Assembly (NCBI GenBank): GCA_016192455.1
Contig: JACPUC010000003.1
Location: forward strand, 124,001 to 188,000
DNA length: 64,000 nucleotides
Direction: 5' to 3'
Source: Candidatus Tectimicrobiota bacterium
GTDB lineage: Bacteria; JACPUC01
Shown here: in pieces, positions 2,241 to 56,580 of the stretch
Layout of the letters: each line of letters begins with the position of its first letter
How positions within the stretch are numbered: the first letter of the stretch is position 1
Made by a program: the position numbers and the translations under genes
Notes under the pieces: generated by a model
What the model was told of the DNA's origin: nothing
The model's database searches: none
Seen by the model: only the letters and a program-made list of their open reading frames with translations

Positions 2241-2267
2241 AATAAAAAAGCGCCGCTGTCGCGGCGC
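2241..2267 (-). terminator. Rho-independent terminator of a minus-strand unit
   Basis: Read on the minus strand, a 7-bp GC stem (GCGCCGC, loop GACA, GCGGCGC) at 2267-2250 is followed directly by TTTTTTATT. The T-run is only on the minus-strand side, so it ends a transcript coming from higher coordinates, matching the small unit at 2303-2579. A second small hairpin (ACCTC/GAGGT, about 2273-2288) lies just before it. Confidence 0.75.
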
Positions 2268-2302
2268 CTTATACCTCTCGTTCGAGGTAGGGGTAGCTTC
2301 TC

Positions 2303-2440
2303 TCACCTGCGAGGAAGCGTCACCATGCTCTCTGTTCTGCGAGCACCCTGACCAGCGCTGACATCCACGCCGATCAGGGGGAATAGCTCAACTTGCAGGA
2401 CTCCGTTGAGCAGATGAACCCTCACAGTCCTGTCGTTCAT
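2303..2440 (-). CDS. Small hypothetical protein, 45 residues
   Basis: An ATG at 2440 is preceded on the minus strand by an A/G-rich ribosome site (AAAAGGGGGTGTGC). The product begins MNDRTVRVHLLNGVLQVELF and ends with a basic tail. It has no domain I recognise; the first 25 residues could form a beta hairpin. The frame lies between a promoter and a terminator on the same strand and behind a long hairpin, which argues for a real transcript. It may equally be incidental within a structured RNA, because GCTCAAC/GTTGAGC and other inverted repeats lie inside the frame. Confidence 0.4.
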   Translation of the reverse strand: MNDRTVRVHLLNGVLQVELFPLIGVDVSAGQGARRTESMVTLPRR

Positions 2441-2458
2441 GCACACCCCCTTTTCTCT

Positions 2459-2536
2459 GGCACTGGGAAAGCCCCATCTCCAACGGCTTTCCATCACCCA
2501 GACAGTCAACCCAACTCAGCAGGCTTTCCCAGTGCC
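2459..2536 (-). ncRNA. Candidate structured RNA or leader element (15-bp perfect inverted repeat)
   Basis: GGCACTGGGAAAGCC and its exact reverse complement flank a 48-nt spacer, giving a 15-bp stem close to the 5' end of the predicted minus-strand transcript (start near 2544). The minus-strand spacer contains a second GGAAAGCC, which could pair with the right arm and allow an alternative fold. The local sequence is visibly less GC-rich than the flanks. It could be a leader regulating the 45-residue frame, or part of a roughly 300-nt RNA ending at the terminator at 2241. It does not match the cobalamin, c-di-GMP, TPP, 6S, tmRNA, SRP or RNase P patterns I know. Confidence 0.45.
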
Positions 2537-2550
2537 ATTTCTCTACAAGT

Positions 2551-2579
2551 AACCTAGAATCCAGCTTCACTCCCGTCAA
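2551..2579 (-). promoter_or_regulatory. Sigma70-type promoter, minus strand
   Basis: On the minus strand TTGACG (2579-2574) is followed after exactly 17 nt by TAGGTT (2556-2551). The -35 is 5/6 and the -10 is weak (3/6). It would start transcription near 2544, immediately before the 15-bp inverted repeat. Confidence 0.5.
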
Positions 2580-4322: not shown

Positions 4323-4454
4323 CGTTCCATCACCTAATTCTGAGAGGGGACCTTCTCCCCAACCGCGCCCGCGGGGACTGATCGTAGGGGCGGGGCTTGC
4401 CCCGCCCGCAACCTCAGTCTGGGAAGGAACCGTGTCTCCTCGCGCGCCCCGGCT
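4323..4454 (-). repeat. Dispersed intergenic repeat, copy C
   Basis: This 132-nt stretch is close to the reverse complement of 10950-11080 (copy A), including a 9-bp stem with 2-nt centre at 4388-4407 (GGGCGGGGC TT GCCCCGCCC). It fills most of the gap between the DUF4178-like gene and the dioxygenase. No transposase is nearby. Confidence 0.8.
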
Positions 4455-4520: not shown

Positions 4521-5060
4521 ATGTCCGTGACGCCGCCGTTCAATTTTCAGAAGTGGATCGAGGAGAACCGCGAGGCCTTGAAACCCCCCGTGGGCAATAA
4601 GGAGGTCTATGCTTGCGGCGACTTCATCGTGCAGGTGATCGGCGGGCCGAACCGTCGCAACGATTTCCACATCGACCCCGGCGACGAGCTCTTCTACCAG
4701 GTGCGCGGTGAGGTGGAGGTGATCTACCTCGACGAGGATGGGCGGCGCCAGGTGGCCCACCTGCGGGCCGGGGACCTGTGGCTCTGCCCGGCCTGGGTGC
4801 CGCACAGCCCGCAGCGCGGTCCCCATACCGTGGGCTTGGTCGTGGAGCGCCGGCGGCTGGAGACCGAGCAGGACCGCTTCGCCTGGTTCTGCGACGCCTG
4901 CAACTCCCTCATCCACGAGGTGTCGCTGCGCGTCACCGACATCGTCGGCCAGCTCAAGGTCATCATGGAGGAGTTCTACGCCAGCGACGCCATGCGCACC
5001 TGCAAGAAGTGCGGCGCCGTGCTGCCGGCGCCCAAACCCCGCGGTCTCCCTTCGTCGTAG
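4521..5060 (+). CDS. nbaC: 3-hydroxyanthranilate 3,4-dioxygenase
   Basis: The 179-residue cupin opens 3-hydroxyanthranilate to 2-amino-3-carboxymuconate semialdehyde with Fe(II) and O2 (kynurenine or nitrobenzoate routes). Family residues are all present: metal ligands His50, Glu56 and His95; substrate arginines Arg46 and Arg99; and the bacterial C-terminal rubredoxin-like iron site Cys124/Cys127 and Cys161/Cys164. Length matches the bacterial enzyme. The ATG at 4521 follows GGGGGGGCGAAC. No aminocarboxymuconate decarboxylase, kynureninase or kynurenine monooxygenase is nearby, so the rest of the pathway must be elsewhere or the substrate may differ. The alternative gene name haaO is also used. 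Confidence 0.92.
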   Translation: MSVTPPFNFQKWIEENREALKPPVGNKEVYACGDFIVQVIGGPNRRNDFHIDPGDELFYQVRGEVEVIYLDEDGRRQVAHLRAGDLWLCPAWVPHSPQRGPHTVGLVVERRRLETEQDRFAWFCDACNSLIHEVSLRVTDIVGQLKVIMEEFYASDAMRTCKKCGAVLPAPKPRGLPSS

Positions 5061-10822: not shown

Positions 10823-11080
10823 TGGTGGGTCTCGCAAGTTCGCTCATATCTGTGCGGCCCTGCTCGCCGCATCGGCAAGGGGTGTGCGAGGGACCCATGC
10901 TCCCCCACACGCCCATCCCGTAGGGGCGGTTCGCGAACCGCCCCTACAAGCCGGGGCGCGCGAGGAGACACGATTCCTTCCTAGACTGAGGTTGCGGGCG
11001 GGGCAAGCCCCGCCCCTACGATCAGCCCCGGCGGATGCGGGAGGGGAGAAGGTCCTCTCGCGGAATGAGGTGATGGAACT
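10820..11080 (+). repeat. Dispersed intergenic repeat, copy A (most complete)
   Basis: The unit starts with TAGTGGTGGGTCTCGCAA, whose TAG is the stop of the ABC ATPase gene. It includes a perfect 28-nt palindrome at 10920-10947 (GTAGGGGCGGTTCG followed by its exact reverse complement) and a second stem at 10996-11015 (GGGCGGGGC AA GCCCCGCCC), and ends near GGTGATGGAAC. The distal half recurs inverted at 4323-4454, and the whole recurs with changes at 22401-22640. No coding frame or terminator T-run is present. It fills most of the gap between the ATPase and pyrophosphatase genes. Confidence 0.85.
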
Positions 11081-22400: not shown

Positions 22401-22640
22401 AGTGGTGCGTCCCACAAGTTCGCTTACCTAGTTGCGGCGGTGCTCGCTGTATTGGCAAGGAGCTTGTCAAGGACCCATGCTCCCCCCTACCCCCATCCCG
22501 TAGGGGCGGTTCGCGAACCGCCCTTACAAGGCGGGGTGCGCGAGGGGACAAGGTTCCCTCGCAGACGTAGGCGCCGGGCGGGGCAAGCCCCGCTCCCTAC
22601 GATCCGCTCCTACGGAGCGCGCGGAGGGGACAAGGTCCCC
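22401..22640 (+). repeat. Dispersed intergenic repeat, copy B
   Basis: Same layout as copy A: GTGGTGCGTCCCACAAGTTC start, a 28-nt palindrome at 22500-22527 with one mismatch, the GGGCGGGGC AA GCCCCGC stem at 22576-22595, and a GGGGAC-AAG-GTCCCC stem at its end (22626-22640). Its right end runs into the 3' end of the molybdenum subunit gene (stop at 22610), so the last few codons of that gene lie within repeat sequence. The left end fills the hyuA upstream gap. Confidence 0.85.
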
Positions 22641-56452: not shown

Positions 56453-56580
56453 ATCGCATCGATGTCGGAGGGAGCCTCGCCCCCTCGCGCATCCCGACTG
56501 GTAGGGGCGGTTCGCGAACCGCCCCTACGGAACAGGGGGTGTGGGGGAGCAAGGGTCCCCCACAAAAACTTCCCCGCCAC
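56431..56580 (+). repeat. Dispersed intergenic repeat, copy E
   Basis: Begins TAGTGTCTGTTTCTCAAA and contains a perfect copy of the 28-nt palindrome at 56501-56528 (GTAGGGGCGGTTCG plus its reverse complement). A GGGGGAGC-AAGG-GTCCCCC stem follows. It overlaps the 3' end of the transglutaminase gene out of frame with its TAG. The region to 56817 has no further gene. Confidence 0.8.

Follow-up and report, generated by a model that had tools for sequence, protein, structure and literature searches.

Between a kinase gene and a gene for a PqqC-like protein, the minus strand of the stretch of DNA analysed here (64 kb, referred to as the window) carries what looks like a complete small transcription unit with a strong hairpin in its leader. 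Is this a small gene with an evolved regulatory leader, a structured RNA, or a unit into which the hairpin was inserted later? The answer favored here, with confidence evenly divided for and against, is a foreign-looking orphan small transcription unit whose leader hairpin would be a later 80-bp MITE-like insertion.

Anatomy of the unit

Read on the minus strand from position 2579 to 2241, the unit presents, in order, a promoter, an inverted repeat, a ribosome site, a 45-codon frame, a second hairpin and a terminator. An earlier note on this DNA had given this order, without the second hairpin, within 340 nt, and all of the elements that it listed are present. Apart from the inverted repeat, they are:

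2551-2579, minus strand: sigma70-like promoter TTGACG-17-TAGGTT (8/12 consensus positions)
2444-2452, minus strand: Shine-Dalgarno-like AAGGGGGTG, read from the sequence, 3 nt before the ATG
2303-2440, minus strand: 45-codon frame MNDRTVRVHLLNGVLQVELFPLIGVDVSAGQGARRTESMVTLPRR (45 aa, without a homologue)
2272-2289, minus strand: 6-bp hairpin TACCTC-GAACGA-GAGGTA ahead of the terminator (folding)
2241-2270, minus strand: intrinsic terminator, a 10-pair stem (2270-2247) followed by TTTTTTATT (terminator scan and folding)

The promoter boxes, TTGACG (2579-2574) and TAGGTT (2556-2551), are separated by a 17-nt spacer. Only ten sites on both strands of the 64 kb meet criteria comparable to those of this promoter, yet a stricter promoter scan of the window did not pick it up. 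The promoter that the earlier note described therefore exists, and its strength is modest (weak to moderate). The ribosome site it described is a good Shine-Dalgarno sequence at 2452-2444, and its hairpin with a T-run is the terminator, which is the sole strict intrinsic terminator match on either strand of the 64 kb. The impression of a region less GC-rich than its surroundings is likewise borne out, as the GC content of 2241-2579 (55.2%) is essentially the lowest among all 339-base windows of the 64 kb. A self-contained transcription unit on the minus strand is plausible, since promoter, Shine-Dalgarno sequence and terminator stand in the right order and a terminator of this quality is an exception in the window. 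The earlier observation is accurate and in part goes beyond what chance would produce.

The leader hairpin as a proposed insertion

The inverted repeat lies between the promoter and the ribosome site and is more extensive than first described. The earlier note reported a perfect 15-bp repeat; the repeat is indeed perfect, but its arms are 16 bp long. The features of this segment are:

2458-2537: 80-bp inverted-repeat element with perfect 16-bp arms at 2458-2473 and 2522-2537 (TGGCACTGGGAAAGCC), a candidate MITE-like insertion
2452-2457: TTTCTC, left flanking direct repeat (candidate target-site duplication), read from the sequence
2538-2543: TTTCTC, right flanking direct repeat, read from the sequence
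2485-2492, plus strand: GGCTTTCC, which repeats part of the arm a third time within the loop (GGAAAGCC on the minus strand), read from the sequence

The arms are 100% complementary with 48 nt between them, and no other perfect inverted repeat in the window whose arms are at most 100 nt apart is as long (the runners-up have 12 bp). Folded alone, the hairpin reaches -44.1 kcal/mol (z -6.0). The TTTCTC copies, which the earlier note did not mention, abut the outer ends of the arms exactly on both sides. The 64-kb window holds 317 perfect inverted repeats with a length of 8 bp or more; only this one, which is the longest, has a 6-bp flanking direct repeat. At 80-bp spacing, a 6-bp repeat occurs at about 3 in 10,000 random window positions, a figure to be read with the fact that the TTTCTC flank was spotted after the fact. 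When the flanks are joined in silico (with the 80 bp taken out along with one copy of the repeat), the sequence reads TAGGTT-ACTTGTA-GAGAAAAGGGGGTGTGC-ATG, which is an ordinary compact leader of about 20 nt. Because of the exact TTTCTC flanks and the ordinary leader that remains once the 80 bp are removed, the hairpin is best read as an insertion, although its arrival by transposition would be a reconstruction from one locus. The partial arm copy in the loop would fit the subterminal repeats of transposable elements.

Known MITEs offer the closest comparison. They are shorter than 500 bp, have terminal inverted repeats of about 4-30 bp and, in young copies, direct-repeat flanks (PMC10969869). 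A short duplication combined with terminal inverted repeats marks a non-autonomous element that has transposed, and MITEs favor AT-rich intergenic DNA and give transcripts that fold into stable stem-loops (PMC10969869). The 16-bp perfect arms and the 80-bp length of the element fall within these ranges, and TTTCTC at both arm ends supplies the direct-repeat flanks, which would represent a duplicated target. Like the prokaryotic MITEs, including the Correia element, ERIC and MITEAba12 (PMC10969869), the element is small, intergenic and bounded by inverted repeats, with short direct-repeat flanks, a stable stem-loop in its transcript and a place beside a promoter. In contrast to them, it is single-copy and no related insertion sequence or transposase was found; it is also small at 80 bp, and no match was made with its arm sequence.

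The search for further copies covered the assembly (88% complete), 386 genomes and viral contigs, and none revealed a second copy of the element. For this reason, it is labelled MITE-like rather than a MITE. Arm matches with up to 3 mismatches number 38 in the genome versus 40 for a reversed-pattern control, and, among the 30 arm matches examined, only the element itself has a second, inverted arm nearby (with up to 4 mismatches allowed). One arm copy with a single mismatch (G000:C23:8436) was set aside, as chance could account for it and no inverted partner accompanies it. Viral contigs and the 386 genomes contain no exact or slightly shortened arm pairs. A search of the assembly for a partner transposase, in the family DDE_Tnp_1 (PF01609), found none. 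Neither the arm matches examined nor the PF01609 search revealed an autonomous insertion sequence with the same ends. Insertion sequences of the IS1634 family generate direct repeats of 5-6 bp and have ends of the form C-----YT (PMC2266710). The 6-bp direct repeat here agrees in length, but the ends start TGGCACTG instead of C-----YT and the genome has no PF01609 transposase.

Each arm, 2458-2473 on the plus strand and 2537-2522 on the minus strand, reads TGGCAC-N5-AAGCC, in convergent orientation. The sigma54 -24/-12 consensus is TGGCAC-N5-TTGCW. The arm motif agrees with it at 8 of 11 fixed positions, probably by coincidence.

The proposed history of the locus starts from what is observed: how the signals are ordered and how good they are, the exactness of the direct repeats, the base composition and the lack of relatives in the data searched. 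Positions 2241-2580 would be a small transcription unit that is specific to its lineage and foreign in composition, and that would be both transcribed and translated. The mRNA, driven by a weak-to-moderate promoter, would be short, with a strong Shine-Dalgarno sequence and the 45-codon frame, and would end at a good intrinsic terminator. An 80-bp non-autonomous inverted-repeat element would later have landed downstream of the transcription start and ahead of the ribosome site, duplicating the 6 bp TTTCTC, and its transcript would form a stable hairpin, not a switch. If this is right, a poorly sampled bacterial lineage has a tiny orphan gene with a minimal inverted-repeat element inserted precisely between its promoter and its ribosome site, and the wider importance is small. 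The case does carry a lesson: before calling a strong, perfect leader hairpin a riboswitch, one should look for duplications that flank it.

A possible regulatory leader or switch

The alternative that survives best, although it is unlikely, is that the hairpin is native to the small gene and regulates it as a leader (an attenuator, a stability element or a protein-binding site) and that the flanks, GAGAAA on the minus strand, are coincidental or part of the motif. The hairpin is well placed for such a role between the promoter and the Shine-Dalgarno sequence, its fold is strong (z -6.0), its loop carries an arm copy and the genome has no other copies of it. The exact 6-bp flanking repeat argues against a native leader, as do the location of the Shine-Dalgarno sequence and the weakness of the alternative pairing. 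The Shine-Dalgarno sequence lies outside the hairpin, and the full-length fold is predicted to pair AAGGGGGTG with a CCCCC stretch within the frame. A bistable switch was considered and rejected. The earlier note had proposed that a second GGAAAGCC in the loop could allow one; that copy does exist (2485-2492), but the fold in which it replaces the left arm reaches -22.2 kcal/mol versus -44.1 kcal/mol for the 16-bp stem, a deficit of about 22 kcal/mol, so that no balance between the two folds is expected.

The unit shares with leader-controlled small genes and riboswitch-type leaders (Rfam) the succession of promoter, hairpin leader, Shine-Dalgarno sequence, short frame and terminator. It differs from them in having no Rfam match, no bistable folding and no conservation. 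The suggestion of a small gene with a folding leader holds as far as the transcription unit, which is plausible, whereas an evolved regulatory leader is weakened because the exact 6-bp flanks fit the insertion of an 80-bp element.

Coding potential and relatives

The 45-aa product has no match in Pfam, NCBIfam, PHROGs or PDB. The homologue search that the earlier note recommended was carried out and returned only local matches at chance level. No credible relative was found in sets of 59, 386 and 297 genomes or in plasmids, phages and viral contigs (for the protein search, the 386 genomes are spread across the domain and the 297 belong to the same phylum as one of the nearest relatives found for the PqqC-like protein). 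The best matches (E of about 0.002 per genome) sit inside long unrelated frames, and this is the level expected by chance from hundreds of genomes. The GC3 of the frame is 0.63 versus about 0.92 in neighboring genes, its codon score of -0.20 per codon is within the off-frame (non-coding) range, and a single-sequence structure model of the product has low confidence (pLDDT 59). With no homologue and no coding signature in codon score or GC3, coding of the frame is unsupported, though a recently acquired gene would show the same GC3 and codon score, and so the frame may still be coding.

The DNA of the unit likewise has no relative in the 386 genomes, in 18 genomes with relatives of the PqqC-like protein, or in plasmids and phages, and the genomes compared include no other member of the phylum of the host. 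The matches found are 19-27 nt long, about the level of chance. Since no relative was found anywhere searched, the unit is regarded as a minor curiosity and not as a new system.

It is rather improbable that the locus is intergenic DNA without a function, decayed or of foreign origin, with a chance promoter and frame and with only the terminator or the hairpin having once mattered. The lack of homologues in every search, the weak promoter and the atypical codons are compatible with decay. Decayed DNA does not readily account for signals ordered on one strand with correct spacings, or for a terminator that is unique in the window.

A possible structured RNA

A non-coding structured RNA of about 300 nt, with the 45-codon frame incidental, is very doubtful. 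The whole-unit fold (z -7.5), the poor codon score of the frame and the strong terminator are in its favor. However, the 16-bp stem and the terminator account for most of the whole-unit z-score, as the remaining 150 nt have a z of only -2.6, and the Shine-Dalgarno sequence and ATG are well placed for translation. Rfam covariance models gave no match in the window at gathering scores, and a permissive scan returned sub-threshold noise only (eukaryotic miRNA, snoRNA and lncRNA). This agrees with the statement in the earlier note that the segment matches no known RNA family, and it leaves the structured RNA of about 300 nt proposed there unsupported as a conserved RNA, given that there is also no relative to compare for covariation. 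It is highly improbable that the unit is an uncharacterized small gene or RNA of an isolated phylum in which the leader hairpin has become a real regulator through domestication of an inverted-repeat insertion.

Genomic surroundings

On one side of the unit, a plus-strand gene for a kinase with PAS, HisKA, HATPase and receiver domains ends at 2076. On the opposite side, the gene for the PqqC-like protein, a member of the TENA/THI-4/PqqC family, starts at 2859. The closest relatives found for this protein are 69-76% identical and come mostly from MAGs titled Deltaproteobacteria or Candidatus Binatia. No comparable hairpin, and nothing resembling the unit, lies upstream of these orthologues. The kinase was not found next to them, nor were the genes that follow downstream, and the orthologue loci are therefore no test of the absence of the unit. 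A plus-strand site at 2704-2732 (TTGCCA-17-TATACT) is among the best sigma70-like sites of the window and probably drives the PqqC-like gene. Two genes past the PqqC-like protein, the plus strand at 4521-5060 encodes a 3-hydroxyanthranilate 3,4-dioxygenase (NF009763, above cut-off).

The window also contains a 28-bp palindrome, GTAGGGGCGGTTCGCGAACCGCCCCTAC, at 10920-10947 and 56501-56528 and also near 22491-22536, with a related half-site near 4386-4411. With up to 2 mismatches, the genome has about 134 copies versus 2 for a reversed control, and the copies are mostly identical among the matches listed. By its copy number, GTAGGGGCGGTTCGCGAACCGCCCCTAC appears to be an abundant REP-like family.
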